From Rhodothermia bacterium (lineage in GTDB: Bacteria > Bacteroidota > Rhodothermia > Balneolales > Balneolaceae): 64,000 nt of DNA. The notes below the pieces were generated by a model. That model worked only from the letters and a program-made list of their open reading frames with translations, did not search any database and was not told the DNA's origin. Position 1 is the first letter of the stretch; the number at the start of each line of letters is the position of its first letter. Where the stretch lies: contig JAUICM010000001.1 of NCBI GenBank assembly GCA_030427885.1, forward strand, positions 496,001 to 560,000, given 5' to 3'. This document shows positions 5,635 to 43,453 of this stretch, in pieces. A program made the position numbers and the translations under genes.

Positions 5635-6287
5635 TAGTCCTCTACTTTTTGATTTTCTTCAGGTTCAGTTTCAATCTTAGGCTTTGTAAATGGTCTGATT
5701 GGCTTTCCACGCCTTGAATCAACTGACGGGCGGAAACAGTGCCGTGCCCTTGGCTCATATGCATCATATTCACCAACTAATACAGTATTAGTATTATCAA
5801 CAACCCTTTGCGAGAAATTAGCCATTGCACCACTTTCAGAACATACAGCATGAAGTTTGGTTACAAATTCAGCTACTGCAAGTAAATAGGGCATAGGACC
5901 AAATGGCTTGCCTTCAAAATCCATATCCAGTCCGGCGACGATCACTCTTTTCTTATCATTTGCCAAAGAATTGACCACATCAACGATACGGGAATCAAAG
6001 AACTGTGCCTCATCAATGCATACCACTTTAGCATTTCCTGTGAGAAGTACGATCTGATCTGCAGTATCAACTAATATACTGGGAAGGGCAGTTTCATTGT
6101 GAGAAACAACCTCAGTATCACTATAACGTTTGTCGATGGCAGGTTTCACAACCACAACATTTTGCCCGGCTATATGAGCTCTTTTAGCTCTTCTGATAAG
6201 CTCTTCAGTTTTACCACTGAACATGCCTCCACAAATAACTTCAATCCATCCAAAATCTCTGGGTGCTAACGAAGGTTCGTTGATCAT
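5634..6287 (-). CDS. tdk: Thymidine kinase, type II
   Basis: Phosphorylates thymidine to dTMP in the salvage pathway; 217 residues from the ATG at 6287 (one codon further upstream only a TTG is available). P-loop GGMFSGKTE at about 20-28, DEAQFF with the catalytic Glu near 93, and the lasso/C-terminal region ending YEPRARHCF. The family's structural zinc site normally uses four cysteines in two CxxC pairs. Here the first pair reads CSES (Cys149, Ser152) and the second ARHC (Ala181, Cys184), so two ligands are gone. Coupled by TAATG to the nucleoside transporter gene. The acidic C-terminal tail ([10 protein letters not shown]) is not part of the conserved fold. Confidence 0.95.
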
Positions 6288-6458
6288 CAATTAATTTTAA
6301 AAGTTGAACCTGAATTTAAGCAAGGAATATATCGGGGAGAAGTACAAATGGAAAGCATAAAGGGGAATTAAATCCAAAAAATGATGATTAGTTTTGAGAG
6401 AAGCAGAAATGATTGCACAGTATTTTTACATATACCTAATGTTTGCTATTTTTTAATC

Positions 6459-8477
6459 ATGAAGAAATTTATACTAAAAAGGGATGAACCAAGACTCAGG
6501 CCGGAAGATTATTCCATCCCATACAGGGATCTGCTGAATAAAAATCAGCTGGAAGCTGTATTTCATACAAATGGCCCGGCTCTGGTGATTGCCGGGGCAG
6601 GAACTGGTAAAACCCGGACCTTAGTATACCGGGTAGCTCGTTTGGTTGAAAGCGGGGTAGATCCATCTCAGATCCTGCTCCTTACTTTCACCCGCAGAGC
6701 TGCTCGTGAAATGCTCAACAGAGCAAGTTCAGTTCTTGATGACCGATGTAAGAAAGTAAAAGGGGGGACTTTTCATTTCTATTGTAGCCAGATCCTTCAT
6801 CGTTATGCCGAAAAATTAGGCTATCCCGGGAATTTTACAATCATTGATACTGCGGATGCATTTGAGATTATTCAACTGGTACGAACCCAGCTGAATATGC
6901 ATAAGAAGAAAAAAAGATTTCCCAATAAAAATACTCTGTACAATATTATAAGTACCTGCAAGAATAAAAATCTGGACATCAGAGTAGTGATCTCAGATTC
7001 GTATCCTCAGTTTGCTGAGCAGGAAGACAAGATAGAACAGGTCGCAAAGGAGTACGAAAATTACAAGGCCAGAAACTTTGTAATGGACTTTGATGATCTT
7101 CTTATAAAAACAAAAGAACTCATTGAACAGCATGAAGATATAAGGATTAATATATCCGGTTCAAATCGCTTTGTTATGGTAGATGAATACCAGGATACGA
7201 ATAAGCTTCAGGCAGATCTTACCTCATTGTTATCGAGTGTACATAATAACGTGATGGCGGTTGGGGATGACGCTCAGAGCATTTACTCATTCAGGGGTGC
7301 AGATCACCAAAACATCATGCAATTCCCGGAACTTTTTGATGGCACCAAACTTATCAAACTTGAAGAGAACTATCGTTCCAGTCCGCAAATACTTAATACA
7401 GCAAACAGGCTTCTTGAACAGGCCAGTTACAAGTTTGAGAAACATCTGTTCTCTAATAATCCGGAAGGAGACATTCCGGCGTTAGTCAAAGCTCCAACTG
7501 AACATGATCAAAGCCGGTTTGTTTCACAGGCGATCATGCAATTAAGAGAACAGGATATCCCTTTAAATGAAATTGCTGTTTTATTCAGAAACGGGCGTGA
7601 TTCTTTTGATCTTGAAGTTGAGTTAAACCGAAAAAACATTCCTTTTGTTAAGTACGGAGGGCAGAAATTTACAGAAGCCGCACATATTAAAGATGTACTG
7701 GCACATGTCCGCGTACTTGTAAACCCTATGGATACAATTGCATGGAACCGGGTCTTAATGTTGATCGATGGAATAGGCCCAAAAACCGCACAGGATCTGT
7801 TTGAATGGATCCGGTTGTCAAATAATCCATATCAACTGGATATGTCAGATTCAGTTAGTAAGGCTTACATGAAGCAGATGAAAAGCCTTAGTAGTTTACT
7901 TATTGAACTGAAAGAAGAAGATCATTCAGTTTCTGAGACCATTGACAAGATCGTCCAATATTACAAGGTTTTTTGCGAGAAGAGATACGATGATTACCCT
8001 AAGAGACTCAAAGACCTGGAGGCATTCGTAAATATTGCACTAGGATTTACTTCACTTGATAAGATGCTTGAAGAACTTGCCCTTGACCCAATCTCAGCTA
8101 CGGCTGTTGATGTAGAGCAAAAACAAAAGGAAGAATCTCCGCTTATACTGAGTACCATTCATTCTGCTAAAGGACTTGAATGGAGGCATGTATTCATTAT
8201 CCAGTGCCTCGATGGCATCATTCCTTCTGCGTATTCTGTAGAAGATGACGAACAACTAGACGAAGAATTGAGATTACTTTACGTTGCAACAACGAGGGCA
8301 AAAGAGATGCTCTATTTCAGTTATCCTGCATTAGCTCAATCACAATATGGTGATTATTTTACAAAACCGACCCGGTATCTCGATGAAATGGATAAGGCGT
8401 TACTGGAAGAATGGAAGTTGATTGAGGATGAACCCGAAGGATTGGATGAAGGAGAAGACCCTTTATTACTTGATTAA
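6459..8477 (+). CDS. UvrD/PcrA-type superfamily I DNA helicase
   Basis: ATP-dependent 3'-5' DNA helicase, 672 residues from the ATG at 6459. An in-frame ATG 26 codons upstream (6381) exists but adds an unlikely hydrophobic stretch. All SF1A motifs are visible: Q motif LNKNQLEAV, Walker A GAGTGKTRTL, Ia LLLTFTRRAAREM, II VDEYQDTN, III GDDAQSIYSFRGA, IV LEENYRSS, V STIHSAKGLEW and VI LLYVATTRAKEM. The family unwinds DNA in repair and in removing blocked replication forks. It is somewhat shorter than E. coli UvrD (720) and ends in an acidic tail rather than a Tudor-like domain. Whether it is the UvrD, PcrA or Rep equivalent cannot be settled here. Its stop codon is shared with the convergent small gene (TTAA at 8474-8477). 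Confidence 0.93.
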   Translation: MKKFILKRDEPRLRPEDYSIPYRDLLNKNQLEAVFHTNGPALVIAGAGTGKTRTLVYRVARLVESGVDPSQILLLTFTRRAAREMLNRASSVLDDRCKKVKGGTFHFYCSQILHRYAEKLGYPGNFTIIDTADAFEIIQLVRTQLNMHKKKKRFPNKNTLYNIISTCKNKNLDIRVVISDSYPQFAEQEDKIEQVAKEYENYKARNFVMDFDDLLIKTKELIEQHEDIRINISGSNRFVMVDEYQDTNKLQADLTSLLSSVHNNVMAVGDDAQSIYSFRGADHQNIMQFPELFDGTKLIKLEENYRSSPQILNTANRLLEQASYKFEKHLFSNNPEGDIPALVKAPTEHDQSRFVSQAIMQLREQDIPLNEIAVLFRNGRDSFDLEVELNRKNIPFVKYGGQKFTEAAHIKDVLAHVRVLVNPMDTIAWNRVLMLIDGIGPKTAQDLFEWIRLSNNPYQLDMSDSVSKAYMKQMKSLSSLLIELKEEDHSVSETIDKIVQYYKVFCEKRYDDYPKRLKDLEAFVNIALGFTSLDKMLEELALDPISATAVDVEQKQKEESPLILSTIHSAKGLEWRHVFIIQCLDGIIPSAYSVEDDEQLDEELRLLYVATTRAKEMLYFSYPALAQSQYGDYFTKPTRYLDEMDKALLEEWKLIEDEPEGLDEGEDPLLLD

Positions 8478-36028: not shown

Positions 36029-36979
36029 TTAACTCAATAGCGCAGCTACACAGGAGGTGTTTACAATATCCTCCCAGCTGCATCCTCTCGAGAGATCCAT
36101 CATTGGTTTTGCAAGTCCCTGAATAACCGGACCAGTTGCTGTTGCGCCTGCCAGTCGTTCTGTAATCTTATAACCGATGTTACCTGCATCGAGGTTGGGA
36201 AAGATAAACACATTTGCTTTTCCTGCCACAGGAGAATCCGGTGCTTTTCGTTTTCCAATACTATCCACAAAAGCAGCATCGAATTGAAGTTCTCCGTCAA
36301 TATTAAGATCGGGGGCCTGCTTTTTGGCAAATTCCAGTCCTTGTTGCATCAGTTCTACCCTTTCATGGACCGCGCTTCCTCTGGTGGAAAATGACAACAT
36401 TGCTGTTCGGGGTTCTTCACCTGTGAGCGCCTTGTGTGAAGCAGAAGAATCCACGGCAATGCTTCCCAGTTGTTCTGCTGTGGGATATGGAACCACTGCA
36501 CAATCTCCATATGTCAACACTTTGCCATCAGGAAAACTCATAAGGAATACGCTTGAAACCACACTGGAACCGGGTTTTAGTCCGATGGTTTGGATAGCCG
36601 CTCGTAATACATCTCCAGTTGTGGAAACAGATCCGGCCACACATCCATCTGCATCTCCTTCTGCTACCATAGATGCAGCAAAGAACAGCGGATCCTGTAC
36701 AATTTCCAATGCCTGGGCAGGAGTTATCCCTTTGTGTTTTCTTTTCTCATAAAATGCGTTCGCATACCTCTCGAGTTTATCACTGTTCGTTGGGTCGATC
36801 ACCGGGATATGTTCAGGTAAACTCCCTCCTTCTTTATTCTTTAATAAAACGACATTACAGAGTTTTTGCTGCAACAGGAACTCTGCGGCCTTAACCACTC
36901 TTTCATCCGAAGATCGTGGTAGCACGATCGTTTTCTTTGCTTCAGATGCCTTTCTACGAATTGATTCGATGATATTCAT
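36029..36979 (-). CDS. pta: Phosphate acetyltransferase
   Basis: 316 residues; converts acetyl-CoA and phosphate to acetyl phosphate. Short form without the DRTGG regulatory domain. PTA_PTB fold: IVLPRSSDERVVKAAEFL near the start, DGCVAGSVSTTGDVLRAAIQ (about 130-149), FLMSFPDGKVLTYGDCAV and the C-terminal VFIFPNLDAGNIGYKITERL and GLAKPMMDLSRGCS. Starts one base after the EamA gene, at the end of the operon begun by ackA. Confidence 0.95.
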   Translation of the reverse strand: MNIIESIRRKASEAKKTIVLPRSSDERVVKAAEFLLQQKLCNVVLLKNKEGGSLPEHIPVIDPTNSDKLERYANAFYEKRKHKGITPAQALEIVQDPLFFAASMVAEGDADGCVAGSVSTTGDVLRAAIQTIGLKPGSSVVSSVFLMSFPDGKVLTYGDCAVVPYPTAEQLGSIAVDSSASHKALTGEEPRTAMLSFSTRGSAVHERVELMQQGLEFAKKQAPDLNIDGELQFDAAFVDSIGKRKAPDSPVAGKANVFIFPNLDAGNIGYKITERLAGATATGPVIQGLAKPMMDLSRGCSWEDIVNTSCVAALLS

Positions 36980-36980
36980 T

Positions 36981-37841
36981 TCAAAAACCTATAAGTAATA
37001 ATATTGAGATTGATGCAAGTATCAGCCCCGCTAATTGTTTACCGGAAACTTTGTCTTTCCAGTATAAATAACCAATCAATGCTCCAATTAACACAATAGA
37101 GATATTCACCATGGGGAATACAACAGAGCCTGGTATTTCTGTCAGGGCTGATATTAAAAAGAATGATGAATAAAGATTGACAACTCCTATGAAGATACCA
37201 TAAAGAATTTCCTTTAAACTGAATTTAAAGTCCCTTTTCCAGATCAAAGTGATACCCCCGATAATTGATGCAGACATAAAGATCAATCCAAGAAAACTAT
37301 AGCCCTGAATGGCAGTACTAAATTCTCGTTCATACACTTTCAGTGATGCATCAGCAATGCCCGACATCACTAAAAGTAAGACCGGATACAGAATATCGCC
37401 TGGCCTGCGAATACTTCCGGTAATTCTGACCGGCAACATCAAATAGAAAGCGGCAAACACCAGGATCACACCCAGGTATTGCTCAATGGATATCCTTTCG
37501 TTGTAGACAAACAAACTCAAACAGATCGGAATGATCAGCGACATCCTCATTGCAGCTATACTGATCCCCATTCCGATACGATGCAATGAAATACTGTAGA
37601 TGGCGAAATTGGCTATGAAAACTGCTCCCAGTGCCAGCGCTATTATTATCACAGATCCATCAGCTTTAAAAACTGAGGATATCGGACCATCCAGCATAAT
37701 GAAACTAATAATGGCTGCGATGATGTAATTTATGACCAATACATTAAGCAGTCGTAGCTCCGATTGACGTACTTTTTTAAGCAGTTGAGCTATTGCAACC
37801 GAACAGGAAACGCAAAGACCTATGTACACTAATCCTGTCAA
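36981..37841 (-). CDS. EamA/DMT-family membrane transporter
   Basis: 286 residues, about ten membrane spans in two repeats of the EamA type (for example the helix with GAVFIANFAIYSISLHRIG, and the second half ending ASISILLLIGF). Substrate unknown; family members export or import metabolites. TTG start at 37841 that overlaps the stop of the preceding gene (TTGA), needed to include the first span. Lies between the caspase-like gene and pta, so it may move a product of acetate metabolism or be a passenger of the operon. Confidence 0.85.
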   Translation of the reverse strand: MTGLVYIGLCVSCSVAIAQLLKKVRQSELRLLNVLVINYIIAAIISFIMLDGPISSVFKADGSVIIIALALGAVFIANFAIYSISLHRIGMGISIAAMRMSLIIPICLSLFVYNERISIEQYLGVILVFAAFYLMLPVRITGSIRRPGDILYPVLLLVMSGIADASLKVYEREFSTAIQGYSFLGLIFMSASIIGGITLIWKRDFKFSLKEILYGIFIGVVNLYSSFFLISALTEIPGSVVFPMVNISIVLIGALIGYLYWKDKVSGKQLAGLILASISILLLIGF

Positions 37842-39547
37842 TCGATCAGGCTTAGTCCTGTATCACCATAATAAACTACATGCTGAGGCTGATTATGTAA
37901 TCTTCGGGAAGTGTAATCCACGTTTCTTTGGAGGTGGTTGATGATCTCTGAGCCTGTTATATTACCTTTTTTAATGGCATCTGCAATGAAATAGGTGAAG
38001 ATGCTATGTCTCTTTTGTTCTCCATTCGGATTACTAAAATCTCTGGACCTCTGGCCTTCTGTAGAGCCGAATACAACCAGGGAATTCGGGTGCTCAGCCA
38101 GAACCTGATTACCGAGTGTTTCCGTTAACCGTGAACTAGCTATCGCTTCCACATTATCCAGATCTGCGAACACAATGATCTGCTCAACAGGTAAATTCGA
38201 AATCCCTTTGAAAAATTCATTGAGATCGATGGTATTTTCATCACCCTCATTGGCAGATATAAGAAGAGTGGTGTTGTCTTTACCCGCCTTAATATAGCCG
38301 GAGATATAGACGATCAATCGCTTTTGGTCATTCCGCAGATTATTAGCCATTCGATTGTATGCCGCACGTAACTGAACCTGACTTTCAATATTGGTGGCTT
38401 TGAAAATATTATTTTGTGGTACACCGATTGCCTTCTGGAGATATTCTTCCATTAATCGACCATCTCGCTCAGCATAACTTCGTTCAGAATATTCACCCTG
38501 ATAAGCTCTGTTAGCTAATATGAAAGCAAAGGTGCTGTCATTGATCTCCGGAGTCTGGGGGATATTACTCTCCACATCCACATTACCGAAAGGAATATTA
38601 GGTACCGTTATGATCGAAAGCTCTGAAGCAAATTCATAGGGCCGCCAAATCGGATAGGCATCATTTTTTGAAATCCAGGTCTCTGAAATCCCATACAATA
38701 CTTTATACCAGGAGTCAGTTTCGGATACTAGTTTCAACTGACTGCCAAATGCAAGGTCTGTAAGTACGTTCCGGGTATCAAGTGAAGGCTTATCTCTTAA
38801 TGCTGTAACCTGAGATGAAACCACTGCAAAACTCTCAAAAATCGATTTGAGTGGTATATTCTCATAATATGTATCATTATTGAAATAGACTTCCACCTCA
38901 ATATATTCAGTGCTGTCGTACCTGAAATCATCAGGATTCAACTCATCAATGAGATTGATGGAATACCTGCCGTTTACAAACGGCATCTCATTTTGAAGAA
39001 CAACTGCTTCCCTCCGGTAGTAGATAGCATATGAAGGTGGTGTTAGTTTAGTTGAATTTATTGCAACCGTATCAGTTTCTTCTACAGTACCGGTCTTTCT
39101 GAGTAGTTTAACTTCCCCAGTAGGTTTTGGTTCACCCACGGGCTTCATATTTAGAAACGATGTTAAGGTGATGAAGCCAGCAGTACCATAAAGCAGATTT
39201 TTGTTTAAAGTTGATTGATCCGTAAGCAAAGCTGCTGAAGTTGCCACACCTGCTCCCAGAGCCCCAAACAATACTGACTTTAAACTGGGACGGTATCGCT
39301 GAATATAACGGTCCGTCCGTACCCTCTGGGTATATCTGAAGGTATTTGATGATTTCAGATTGTAGCTTATGATCGGTGAAGACGGACTTATATTTCCTGT
39401 TCTTTCAAGGAATTCAACAGAGCTTAATAATTCAAAATCACTGTAATCTGTCTCTTTCTGGTTCTCCACATTCCATCTGGAACTCGAACAAGCTGCTGAT
39501 AATACGAGCAGTAGCAGAAGTAAGTAAGAATGGAGAGATCTTATCAT
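37838..39547 (-). CDS. Lipoprotein with SH3-like and inactive caspase-like (C14) domain
   Basis: 569 residues. Lipoprotein leader with lipobox (VLSAAC, Cys20), a glycine-rich hydrophobic hairpin (SVLFGALGAGVATSAALL, about 90-107), a linker, an SH3-type domain (about 240-305, ALRDKPSLDTRNVLTDLAFG to WISKNDAYP), and a caspase-like domain (about 335-569: FAFILANRAYQG start, HSIFTYFIADAIKK end). In the active-site strands the usual SGHG reads SGYI and the usual DxC reads FADLD, so both the catalytic His and Cys are gone. It should be a pseudo-protease exposed in the periplasm or at the outer membrane. Overlaps ackA (ATGA) and the EamA gene (TTGA). Confidence 0.82.
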   Translation of the reverse strand: MIRSLHSYLLLLLLVLSAACSSSRWNVENQKETDYSDFELLSSVEFLERTGNISPSSPIISYNLKSSNTFRYTQRVRTDRYIQRYRPSLKSVLFGALGAGVATSAALLTDQSTLNKNLLYGTAGFITLTSFLNMKPVGEPKPTGEVKLLRKTGTVEETDTVAINSTKLTPPSYAIYYRREAVVLQNEMPFVNGRYSINLIDELNPDDFRYDSTEYIEVEVYFNNDTYYENIPLKSIFESFAVVSSQVTALRDKPSLDTRNVLTDLAFGSQLKLVSETDSWYKVLYGISETWISKNDAYPIWRPYEFASELSIITVPNIPFGNVDVESNIPQTPEINDSTFAFILANRAYQGEYSERSYAERDGRLMEEYLQKAIGVPQNNIFKATNIESQVQLRAAYNRMANNLRNDQKRLIVYISGYIKAGKDNTTLLISANEGDENTIDLNEFFKGISNLPVEQIIVFADLDNVEAIASSRLTETLGNQVLAEHPNSLVVFGSTEGQRSRDFSNPNGEQKRHSIFTYFIADAIKKGNITGSEIINHLQRNVDYTSRRLHNQPQHVVYYGDTGLSLID

Positions 39548-40761
39548 GCCCAGGGCGTTTGTTTTGAGGCGATCGCGATCTTAGCTGAATCAATTGCGAT
39601 CACAAGTTCTTCATTAGTTGGAATGACGTAGACTTCAACATTAGAGTCTTCAGTTGAGATCTTTGGGTTTTCCTTTGGATTATTGTTCGCTTTCTTATCG
39701 AGCTTTATACCTAAATACTCAAGATCAGCAAGAATTCGTTCCCTGATCGGATGCGCATTTTCTCCAATACCTCCGGTAAATATGATCGCATCAGCTCCGT
39801 TTAACGCTGCCATATAAGAACCGATGTATTTCTTAGCACGGTAACAAAATACATCAATAGCCTCATTACAACGTCGGTCACCATTCTCAGCTTCTTCTAA
39901 GAGATCACGCATATCGCCGGCATAACCACTTAGTCCGAGTAGCCCGCTGTGTTTGTTCAACAGGGCATGAACATTAGCAAGAGATAATTCCTCTTTCTCT
40001 ATGAGGTAGAACAAGATAGAAGGATCAATATCACCACTTCTGGTACCCATAACCAGTCCTTCCAGTGGGGTAAATCCCATACTTGTGTCATATGAGTTTC
40101 CATCTTTTATAGCTGTGATAGAACCACCGTTTCCAAGGTGACAGGTAATGATCTTGGATCCCTGCTTTTTTTGTCCTGAGATCTTAAAGTATTGACGGCT
40201 TACGTAATAGTGAGAAGTCCCATGAAATCCATACCGGCGTATTTTATATCTGCGATACAAACGGTTTGGTATACCATACAAGTACGCGTGTTGCGGTATA
40301 GAATGGTGGAATGCTGTATCAAATACAGCTACGTGAGGTACATTCGGTAAATGCTTCTTTGCAGCCCTGATACCCTGCAGGTTTGGTGGATTGTGAAGTG
40401 GTGCGATATCAAAAGCATGTTCGATCGCTTCCTCTACATCTTCATCAATCAGTACAGAATCCTTGAAAGTCTCTCCCCCGTGCACCACACGGTGGCCAAC
40501 AGCTTCAATTTCATCCAAAGAATGCAAATATTCATTATCAGCTTCCAGAAGAAGATCCATGATCGCCTTTAAGGCCGCTGCATGGTTTTCCAGGCTTATT
40601 GATTTCTTGATGGGTTTTTCGTCTTTGAACTCCTGATGTACAATCGAAGTCACAGCCCCTATTCGTTCCACTAATCCTTTACACAGTGTTTCTTTATTCT
40701 CAGTGTTGATGAGCTGATATTTGATAGATGAGCTTCCGCAGTTAATTACTAAGATCTTCAT
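39544..40761 (-). CDS. ackA: Acetate kinase
   Basis: 405 residues; makes ATP from acetyl phosphate and ADP. Family marks: INCGSSSIKYQLI (about 5-17), VGHRVVHGGETFKD, HNPPNLQGIRA, FDTAFHHSIP, RYGFHGTSHYYVS, THLGNGGSI-type CHLGNGGSITAI, and FTGGIGENAHPIRERI. Complete. It lies three bases after the stop of a beta-barrel gene and overlaps the pseudo-caspase gene by ATGA, so acetate kinase and phosphotransacetylase are in one transcript with two other genes in between. Confidence 0.97.
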   Translation of the reverse strand: MKILVINCGSSSIKYQLINTENKETLCKGLVERIGAVTSIVHQEFKDEKPIKKSISLENHAAALKAIMDLLLEADNEYLHSLDEIEAVGHRVVHGGETFKDSVLIDEDVEEAIEHAFDIAPLHNPPNLQGIRAAKKHLPNVPHVAVFDTAFHHSIPQHAYLYGIPNRLYRRYKIRRYGFHGTSHYYVSRQYFKISGQKKQGSKIITCHLGNGGSITAIKDGNSYDTSMGFTPLEGLVMGTRSGDIDPSILFYLIEKEELSLANVHALLNKHSGLLGLSGYAGDMRDLLEEAENGDRRCNEAIDVFCYRAKKYIGSYMAALNGADAIIFTGGIGENAHPIRERILADLEYLGIKLDKKANNNPKENPKISTEDSNVEVYVIPTNEELVIAIDSAKIAIASKQTPWA

Positions 40762-40764
40762 GAT

Positions 40765-42000
40765 TCAGAAGGAGAAAATGGCTCCAACTCCAATTAAGTT
40801 CCGGTATTTAAAATTAGGATCGTTTTGTTCAGGATTTGATAACCAGAATGGAATATCATAACGAATAAAAATTCCCCGATCCTTCCCAAGATAGTCAGGA
40901 ATATTGAAGGAAATTTGAAGACCAAGACCGGCATCAGAAATAAATCCCGGATCAGATATAATATCCCCCTCATAAACTGTACCTTCGTCAGCGTCAAATC
41001 CAAAACCTTTACCAGCATCTATAAAAAGGTAAGACCTTAATTCTGTCAAATTGCCAATATATTTTAATCTTTTAATAGCTGAATTAAGGGGATTGGGGAA
41101 CTCAAGTTCTGTATTTAAAGCATAAAAGGATAAGTAAAGTGGTAGGTCAGAATTTTTGATGTTATTCAAATCTGAAGCAATATATCCTCTGAGATTTGCA
41201 CCTCCGGAGGTATGAATAAATCCCGATTCCATCCATGGTTGAGGAATTGTTCCTTTCGCACGGGTCAAACCTTTCTGTAAAGTTGAATAAGCTGGACTCA
41301 ATCCCGCCATGAATTGATATTGGCGGCTTAATTTTTCAGTACCTAACCCTGCAAATCCTCTTAATCTTAATTTGAATGAATCACTCAGATCAAAACGCTG
41401 GATAAGTTCAATAGTACCAACACTGGCATCGGCTTCAATAGCCATAAAATCAATAAGACCAATAAAGCGACCCGACTCCTGGTTTATACTATAACGATAT
41501 TTAAGGCCCAAAATCCCTTTGTATTCTTTTTGCCAAAGGCCTGGAAATATCCTGTACTCATAGTCATACATTTTTTCGAATGAAAAATAAATGCTAAGCT
41601 CTTTATAATCATACTCATCGAATCCTGGTTGCCATCGCTTATTGAATTGAAAACGATGCATCGAAAATCCGGTTCTGATACTACTAATTAACTGAGCACT
41701 TCCTTTGTTTGCATAATTACTCGTATTCCTGAATGGCTCGGTTATAGAAAAATAGTATGAAACCGGAAGATCCGGAAACCATGTGCTTAACCAAAGCCCT
41801 GCATCGATTTGGTGGGGCCCCTCCTGAAAAGCTTCTTCCCCCAATACCCGAACTCCAACTCTTATTCCATCTACATCATTGTACCAGAGATCGGGAGCGA
41901 ATTTGAATTCGTAGGAATCCTCCTGAGCAAAAAGGGGCGTTGATCCCATCGCCAATAGAAAAGTAAGTAAAAGTACTCTCAGGGGGTTTTTATGCGCCAC
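40765..42000 (-). CDS. Outer-membrane beta-barrel protein, duplicated copy
   Basis: 411 residues from a GTG at 42000. This start gives a proper signal peptide (AHKNPLRVLLLTFLLAMG, cut after LFAQ) and aligns with the ATG of the neighbouring paralogue, where one base differs (ATG to GTG). An ATG 23 codons upstream only translates a leftover NUDIX-gene segment. The mature part starts YEFKFAPDLWYNDVDGIRVGVR and is rich in amphipathic strands, ending NLIGVGAIFSF, as in BamA/TamA-like or FadL-like barrels. Function unknown. Paralogue of the next upstream gene; ackA follows after three bases. Confidence 0.82.
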   Translation of the reverse strand: MAHKNPLRVLLLTFLLAMGSTPLFAQEDSYEFKFAPDLWYNDVDGIRVGVRVLGEEAFQEGPHQIDAGLWLSTWFPDLPVSYYFSITEPFRNTSNYANKGSAQLISSIRTGFSMHRFQFNKRWQPGFDEYDYKELSIYFSFEKMYDYEYRIFPGLWQKEYKGILGLKYRYSINQESGRFIGLIDFMAIEADASVGTIELIQRFDLSDSFKLRLRGFAGLGTEKLSRQYQFMAGLSPAYSTLQKGLTRAKGTIPQPWMESGFIHTSGGANLRGYIASDLNNIKNSDLPLYLSFYALNTELEFPNPLNSAIKRLKYIGNLTELRSYLFIDAGKGFGFDADEGTVYEGDIISDPGFISDAGLGLQISFNIPDYLGKDRGIFIRYDIPFWLSNPEQNDPNFKYRNLIGVGAIFSF

Positions 42001-42095
42001 TCTGGTAGAATTTGATCGTGTTTGAGGATCTGGTTTGTTAGCCGTATTAACCGTTTTTGTTCCGGCCATGAAAGGTACGAATCAAGTTTATTAAT
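42001..42095 (-). pseudogene. Remnant of NUDIX gene 3' end
   Basis: This stretch before the second barrel gene aligns with 43454-43546, the last part of the NUDIX gene. A 29-base block (42043-42071 and 43496-43524) is identical and the rest matches at most positions. The rest of the NUDIX gene is not there. It marks the left end of the duplicated unit. Confidence 0.85.
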
Positions 42096-42139
42096 AGAAA
42101 TCAGGTCTCTACTGATAATCGATATGGGATAATTTCCAA

Positions 42140-43453
42140 TCACAGATCAAATACAGCTCCAATACCTAACAAATGTCTAAACTTAAATCCTGGTTCTGTC
42201 TTCAAATCATTAAGGAGTATCGGATATTCATCAGTATACCCCTCTGGAGGTTTCAATCCATACCTCATAGGTTGAAAAATATAAACAGGAAGATCGTACC
42301 GGATAAAAATTCGCTTTCTTTTACCAATGACCTCAGGAAGTTCAAGGCTTAAACTCATTCCAAATCCCGCATCAGATAATATGATACCGGTTACAGGATC
42401 GATCACAAACATACCGACATCAAAAAACCCATAGGTATCAATCCGTACTTTATCTCCCGAATATAGTAATGGGAATGGATTCGGTATACTTAGTTCTGTA
42501 TTAACTGAATTTATTAACCTACCTCTTCGTACAACCTGACTATTAAAGAAGGTAAACATATCTTTTGTATACCCTCTTATATTAGCACCCCCTGCCATAT
42601 GCAGATACCCGTTTTCAATAAAGCTTTTACTGAAAATACCATCCGCTCTGGTAAAGCCGTTGTCCAGCCAATTCACATATTTACCTCCCGCATAATCAGT
42701 GGTATACTCATCTGGAGAAACGCTCGATATATAGGTGCTAAAAAGACGGAATCGAAAACTGGAATGTCTGTTAAAGTAGTGCTTGGCTGTAACACTGGCT
42801 TCAAAATCCCAGAAAGTATCTACCATATGAGTTCCAGCATTCTTACTGTAGTTTTTCATATAGCTTAAATCGAATACTAACTTCGTAGCTCCGTCATCTA
42901 TATGATGCTTTACTCCAATCTCATAGATCTTATTCCAAAACGTAAAGGTAAATTGCCTTACTGTATAAGGAGATTGCCTCCAATATTCCGGAAAATGAAT
43001 GTAGTCACTATTAGTCCTTCTCTCTCTTCTTAAATTCAGACTGATCAGTGTGAAAGTCTTCTCATTATTTTTGTTCCTAAAAACTTTCTTTAACGAAATT
43101 CCGTGCCTAACAAACCCGGTTCTTTTAAAACTATTGAATTCTACAATCCCCGGGTTGCGGGATGTTGAGATATAAGAGATCGGTAATTCGTAGTTGAAAT
43201 AGTAAGAGAGGTAGCTACCCGGGAATGAGGTGCCAAGCCATAACCCGGCATCCAAACGACTTAATGTTGTATCAATCAAACTCATTTCTTTAGAGCGGGA
43301 AAGAACTCCTACACGTACTCCATCAACAGAATTATACCAAAGATCCGGGTGGAAATTATAATGTGTGGTACTGAATTGGGCCTTGCTCTCTAAGCTAATG
43401 ATACATAGGGCTATTACAATGAGACATGGTCTTAATGTATTTCTAATAGCCAT
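42140..43453 (-). CDS. Outer-membrane beta-barrel protein, first copy
   Basis: 437 residues. Signal peptide (LRPCLIVIALCIISLESKAQ), then YNFHPDLWYNSVDGVRVGVL, clearly homologous to the second copy (DLWYNDVDGIRVGV). The body is a run of beta strands with alternating aromatics, and the end IFIRYDLPVYIF...FRHLLGIGAVFDL matches IFIRYDIPFWLS...YRNLIGVGAIFSF of the paralogue. No catalytic motif seen. Its ATG lies inside the 3' end of the NUDIX gene (22-base overlap), so the two are coupled. Divergence between copies is considerable, so the duplication is old, although the non-coding scar is well kept. Confidence 0.82.
   Translation of the reverse strand: MAIRNTLRPCLIVIALCIISLESKAQFSTTHYNFHPDLWYNSVDGVRVGVLSRSKEMSLIDTTLSRLDAGLWLGTSFPGSYLSYYFNYELPISYISTSRNPGIVEFNSFKRTGFVRHGISLKKVFRNKNNEKTFTLISLNLRRERRTNSDYIHFPEYWRQSPYTVRQFTFTFWNKIYEIGVKHHIDDGATKLVFDLSYMKNYSKNAGTHMVDTFWDFEASVTAKHYFNRHSSFRFRLFSTYISSVSPDEYTTDYAGGKYVNWLDNGFTRADGIFSKSFIENGYLHMAGGANIRGYTKDMFTFFNSQVVRRGRLINSVNTELSIPNPFPLLYSGDKVRIDTYGFFDVGMFVIDPVTGIILSDAGFGMSLSLELPEVIGKRKRIFIRYDLPVYIFQPMRYGLKPPEGYTDEYPILLNDLKTEPGFKFRHLLGIGAVFDL

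Follow-up and report, generated by a model that had tools for sequence, protein, structure and literature searches.

The window analysed here is a stretch of 64,000 nucleotides from a Rhodothermia bacterium of the Balneolaceae (assembly GCA_030427885.1, contig JAUICM010000001.1, positions 496,001 to 560,000). Its minus strand contains a compact string of genes in which a lipoprotein with a caspase-like domain is encoded between ackA and the genes of an EamA-family transporter and of Pta (Table 1). The Pfam and NCBIfam matches put the identities of these three neighbours beyond doubt. The lipoprotein gene starts with ATG and runs open for 569 codons. Its start overlaps the stop of ackA as ATGA, its own TGA overlaps the TTG start of the EamA gene as TTGA, and pta begins one base beyond the EamA gene. 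These junctions were all proposed in the initial annotation and can be read in the sequence, with the caveat that the TTG start of the EamA gene was that annotation's choice and is not a proven start codon. Relatives mostly have an ATG at this position, and the junction reads TGATG or TAATG in most loci. Hence, the overlap of the two genes appears to be real in kind, but the exact TTG start is less certain. Upstream of ackA, two tandem barrel-like proteins of ~435 aa lacking a Pfam family are encoded at 40765-43453 on the same strand. One of them, omp1, has a weak tblastn match (E ~1e-4) to proteins of ~1050 aa, one of which (L206, 2340-5477) resembles an M1 peptidase carrying a barrel at its C-terminus.

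Table 1. Genes and protein features of the locus, with positions in the window.
Feature	Positions	Strand	Remarks and evidence
Pseudo-caspase lipoprotein gene	37838..39547	-	569 aa; open reading frame and translation, orthologues
ackA (acetate kinase)	39544..40761	-	Neighbour, not required; Pfam/NCBIfam, presence table
EamA-family transporter gene (eamA)	36981..37841	-	Neighbour; Pfam, junctions
pta (phosphate acetyltransferase)	36029..36979	-	Neighbour, not required; NCBIfam, presence table
omp1, outer-membrane barrel-like protein	40765..42069	-	Frequent upstream neighbour; conserved order
Signal peptide, residues 1-19, up to lipobox Cys20	39491..39547	-	Sequence; Cys20 conservation
Residues 20-162, helical hairpin set among three very long beta strands	39062..39490	-	AlphaFold2 models; highest conservation within the protein
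Hydrophobic helical hairpin, residues 89-132	39152..39283	-	Possible outer-membrane insertion; models, hydropathy
Residues 163-240, strands completing an Ig-like sandwich	38828..39061	-	Model; structural comparison, weak
SH3-like domain, ~residues 241-303	38639..38827	-	Pfam; profile match to a solved SH3 domain, E 0.41
Pseudo-caspase domain, residues 334-569	37841..38548	-	Pfam C14; Foldseek, VIA
Tyr418 codon, catalytic His position	38294..38296	-	Alignment with active cousin and orthologues
Asp464 codon, catalytic Cys position	38156..38158	-	Alignment with active cousin and orthologues

Peptidase_C14 (PF00656) matches residues 340-555 with an E-value of 7.5e-7 (29.5 bits for a Pfam cut-off of 21.4). 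The best Foldseek match of the model of residues 334-569 is MALT1 (E 1.5e-8), and VIA retrieves metacaspase 4 (Z 18.6, rmsd 3.2 over 210 residues) as well as chain B of 3h11, an entry of the caspase-8:c-FLIP complex (Z 17.6). The modelled caspase fold of this region is not in doubt. Despite this fold, the window protein lacks both the catalytic His (GHG) and the catalytic Cys (DxC). One continuous alignment of the domain (126 bits) with a lipoprotein caspase that keeps the dyad, encoded at locus L075, pairs Tyr418 with the SGHG His and Asp464 with the DACFSG Cys, and the sole cysteine of the mature window protein is the lipidated one. Neither catalytic residue is present, so the protein is, as judged from its sequence, not a C14 peptidase. 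This agrees with the initial annotation, which had described a domain with the landmarks of the fold and neither catalytic residue. The structural comparison with caspases that it had suggested confirmed the fold. A dyad relocated within the domain was ruled out, as there is no Cys in it and the partly conserved His514 and His551 lack a Cys partner. A frameshift restoring SGHG, which had been named as a potential refutation, was also ruled out, since the relatives share the Tyr and Asp in intact frames.

The substitutions are a family trait. Position 418 is occupied by Y in 36 of 70 orthologues, by H in 15, by F in 10, and by other residues in 9, while position 464 is D in 51, E in 10, S in 4, F in 2, and Q, M, or I in one each, and is never Cys. 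No Cys at all is found in the caspase domain of 66 out of 71 orthologues. Residue 462, which aligns with the first Asp of the DAC motif of active relatives, is Asp in 71 orthologues and Glu in 2. In metacaspases, this Asp helps to bind a basic side chain. One may consider the possibility of an active hydrolase with a remodelled centre, built on the acidic pair Asp462/Asp464 and, in family f3, a His: position 462 always carries an acid, 61 of 70 orthologues have one at 464, and the His is present in all f3 proteins. However, outside f3 the His is replaced by any of Y, F, S, K, A, V, Q, or I, and 9 of 70 orthologues have S, F, Q, M, or I at 464, which leaves no catalytic set common to the family. 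Furthermore, active caspases have an Asp at this place too, as the first residue of DAC, and the conservation of Asp462 may thus be inherited. We therefore regard a remodelled hydrolase as highly improbable. The old active site might instead be either a ligand pocket or a sealed one, and both are possible. Arg361, which replaces the Asn of the ND motif and is kept in 73 of 74 orthologues, could pair with the acids 462 and 464 and seal the pocket. The second S1-type acid (Asp362) is lost in f3, making a ligand common to the whole order less likely.

Protein and profile searches revealed single-copy orthologues in ~106 genomes, all of one order, and these are full-length except for a few cut by contig ends. 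They are found in the families f1, f2, f3, and f5 (Balneolaceae and three sister families), where the named members, e.g., Balneola and Gracilimonas, are Balneolaceae. The order comprises marine and hypersaline bacteria. We found no orthologue in the sampled genomes of family f4, and the other families of the class gave only short matches to ordinary caspase domains. The protein tree follows the families. All 15 f3 proteins keep the His and have Asp at the Cys position, while those of f1 mostly have Tyr or Phe together with Asp or Glu. Since all 15 f3 proteins kept the His, the pattern of residues indicates that the loss of the dyad is ancient and stepwise: the nucleophile disappeared either before the families diverged or separately in each, and the His was lost outside f3. 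For comparison, we checked 15 other C14 loci in the group, several of which overlap the same gene: 12 keep GHG and DAC/DSC, and the remainder missed the strict pattern. This shows that the loss is particular to the pseudo-caspase family. The lost dyad might also be taken as the mark of a decaying gene without current function. This explanation has a practically negligible probability: the frames are full-length in ~70 relatives, Cys20, Trp25, Arg80, and Tyr85 are invariant (and Gln83 nearly so), and the dN/dS of ~0.05-0.19, computed on close pairs with unsaturated dS, reveals purifying selection and excludes decay. These results make a well-supported family of old, vertically inherited lipoproteins with a dead caspase fold in the order containing Balneolaceae.

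Dead relatives of proteases often regulate active ones (PMC6426788, PMC11266112), and the window protein might act in this way on an active caspase-like protease of the same cell. It resembles animal c-FLIP and other regulatory pseudo-caspases in that a dead caspase fold would have been kept for binding, and the caspase-8:c-FLIP entry is among its structural matches. Yet, the animal proteins regulate active caspases of their own cell, whereas no second C14 protein was found in the window genome, which implies that the protein's role is not the regulation of an active C14 sibling. Extra C14 genes are few and scattered in the relatives, most of which have none detected. Hence, we consider a c-FLIP-like role very improbable. 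Searches for defence systems with PADLOC gave no match, and a phage origin was rejected, the only PHROG match being weak and to a generic lipoprotein.

The N-terminal half of the protein carries the lipoprotein anchor and the predicted hydrophobic hairpin that had been proposed from the window alone, and a putative SH3-like domain, also proposed there. The lipobox Cys20 is kept in 73 of the 73 orthologues covering it and is followed by S or T. The SH3-like match is weak in the window protein (residues 243-297, 15.9 bits, under the Pfam cut-off) and stronger in some relatives matched by SH3 models (best SH3_3, E 6.4e-7). AlphaFold2, run on the window protein with 16 relatives, gave a full model with a mean pLDDT of 81, and the N-terminal part modelled alone has a pLDDT of 88. 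These models predict three strands of ~30 residues each, the first of which begins at the lipidated Cys20, and a hairpin made of helices 89-108 and 113-132 with moderate hydrophobicity (median best window 1.4). In this topology, which is derived from the order of the elements and not from measured coordinates, the hairpin should share the end of the blade where Cys20 lies, with the Ig-like sandwich at the far end, followed by the SH3 and pseudo-caspase domains. Since this order puts Cys20 and the hairpin at the same end, we infer that the lipid and the hairpin both meet the membrane. Among solved structures, none matches the N-domain clearly (best Z of 8.5, near background), and its profile has no match outside the order among the 394 genomes sampled in the phylum. 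We considered a fold like that of the TraT-type outer-membrane lipoproteins (PMC11733297), which also have a lipid anchor and hydrophobic helices beside a beta structure. TraT differs in its three membrane helices, its sandwich of seven strands, and the absence of additional domains, and no significant match to it appears among the structures listed for the N-domain model.

The location of the gene would fit a sensor or regulator of acetate overflow translationally coupled to AckA, EamA, and Pta. When searched for in relatives, the gene order proved to recur in many genera: we found ackA-caspase-eamA in 23 loci, omp1-caspase-eamA in 21, and ackA-caspase-pta in 13. The overlap with ackA is of 1-10 nt in 26 loci, with start codons picked by rule, and that with eamA is of the kind described above. 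The arrangement omp1-ackA-caspase-(eamA)-pta is probably ancestral to f1, f2, f3, and f5, since it is present in all four. It is thus no oddity of a single genome, which was the first outcome that the initial annotation had listed against its proposal, but the second, homologues next to other genes, was observed in many genomes. The conserved block also includes greA, a nudix gene, and sufB, and the presence of these unrelated housekeeping genes suggests that gene-order stasis is general there. Of the 56 good genomes with the pseudo-caspase gene, ackA is missing from 12, and 6 have neither ackA nor pta. Conversely, f4 genomes have ackA and pta without the pseudo-caspase gene, and the two are directly joined in L109, L110, and L112. 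There is no association between the presence of the gene and that of ackA/pta (Fisher p 0.44, 0.35; relatedness uncorrected). When ackA is elsewhere, the pseudo-caspase gene directly follows the outer-membrane-barrel gene, and in one genome an ackA fragment with two stops (G032:C4:30184-30393, L099) adjoins an intact pseudo-caspase gene. Moreover, an exported lipoprotein cannot directly contact the cytoplasmic AckA and Pta. The proposal of one functional unit joining overflow acetate metabolism to a pseudo-protease finds no support in this comparison. Given that the gene is kept without ackA and pta, that ackA left a remnant beside it in G032, and that f4 has ackA-pta without it, we rejected a dedicated acetate role as the main explanation and consider an acetate sensor improbable; the position between acetate genes looks incidental in these comparisons. 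The pseudo-caspase gene is probably transcribed together with ackA, eamA, and pta owing to the compact string of genes, and not in the service of acetate metabolism. A link with acetate in part of the order is possible, the gene string being conserved enough.

Genus g28 has neither ackA nor pta. There (L069, 2279-5941), the old ackA slot between omp1 and the pseudo-caspase gene is taken, on the other strand, by genes for acetyl-CoA synthetase and for an oxalate/formate-type MFS protein, an arrangement that would suit an acetate sensor. The association of omp1 itself with the pseudo-caspase gene (p 0.004) arises partly from reduced genomes and is uncorrected for relatedness. We rejected a dependence on omp1, as each gene is found without the other: omp1 in f4, and the pseudo-caspase gene in four good genomes.

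We favour the explanation that the protein is a non-catalytic lipoprotein of the outer membrane whose pseudo-caspase binds a partner and does not serve acetate metabolism, and give this reading as a whole about an even chance of being correct. The lipid and the helical hairpin, at one end of a stiff beta stalk, would place it in the outer membrane, and the stalk would hold the Ig-like domain, the SH3 domain, and the pseudo-caspase off the membrane. The former active site, with its invariant acid at 462 and an acidic residue for the Cys, would no longer cut and would bind a peptide or a partner protein, making the protein a scaffold or sensor of the envelope rather than a protease. We infer the outer-membrane location, the binding, and the scaffold or sensor duty alike, and it is solely the conserved acids at the old active site that would argue for peptide binding. 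The moderate hydrophobicity of the hairpin and the N-domain's want of a clear structural counterpart speak against this reading. In a more tentative version, which we think rather unlikely, this would be an order-wide outer-membrane system where the stalked dead caspase and the SH3 domain read a peptide or peptidoglycan signal. It would have become an envelope sensor before the order diversified, with an acid replacing the nucleophile first and the His lost later.

Bacterial dead caspases have so far been described mostly in Cyanobacteria and Alphaproteobacteria. The pseudo-orthocaspases known from these clades have Tyr-Ser or Phe-Ser dyads, and 10 pseudo-variants were counted among 1078 sequences of Bacteroidetes (PMC6426788). 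SyOC, the cyanobacterial pseudo-orthocaspase of Synechocystis, affects survival under oxidative stress (PMC7889975). We found no literature on caspases in Balneolaceae. The family described here falls under the definition of pseudo-orthocaspases, i.e., a bacterial caspase p20 with a substituted dyad (PMC6426788), and shares with them, including SyOC, the p20 fold, the substituted His-Cys dyad, the conservation across a clade, and the frequent Tyr in place of His. Unlike the described proteins, which have Ser at the Cys position, it has Asp or Glu there, and its pseudo-caspase belongs to an exported lipoprotein that also has an SH3 domain and a beta stalk specific to the lineage. Set against the published descriptions, it is a variant of the pseudo-orthocaspase theme that is new in its dyad type, anchor, and domain plan. 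It thus extends the theme to another lineage with a protein that is inherited vertically in single copy and probably located in the envelope, and brings the function of dead caspases within reach of tests in cultured species, e.g., Gracilimonas. It also exemplifies how a conserved and overlapping gene order can mislead on function.

The substitutions form an evolutionary series from His-Cys in a distant cousin to His-Asp in one family and Tyr-Asp in another. The cousin is the caspase of genus g4 (L075, 5823-7076, minus strand), a lipoprotein whose caspase domain can be aligned over its full length with that of the window protein and shares with it the VDxE..IP lead-in and the RRLHN..Q end. In contrast to the window protein, it keeps SGHG and DACFSG, has no N-terminal stalk or SH3 domain, lies in an unrelated neighbourhood, and is found in few genomes. 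In this locus (5823-7903, minus strand), the active-looking caspase is preceded by two small lipoprotein genes similar to each other, and an apparent DUF4384-type protein is encoded divergently.
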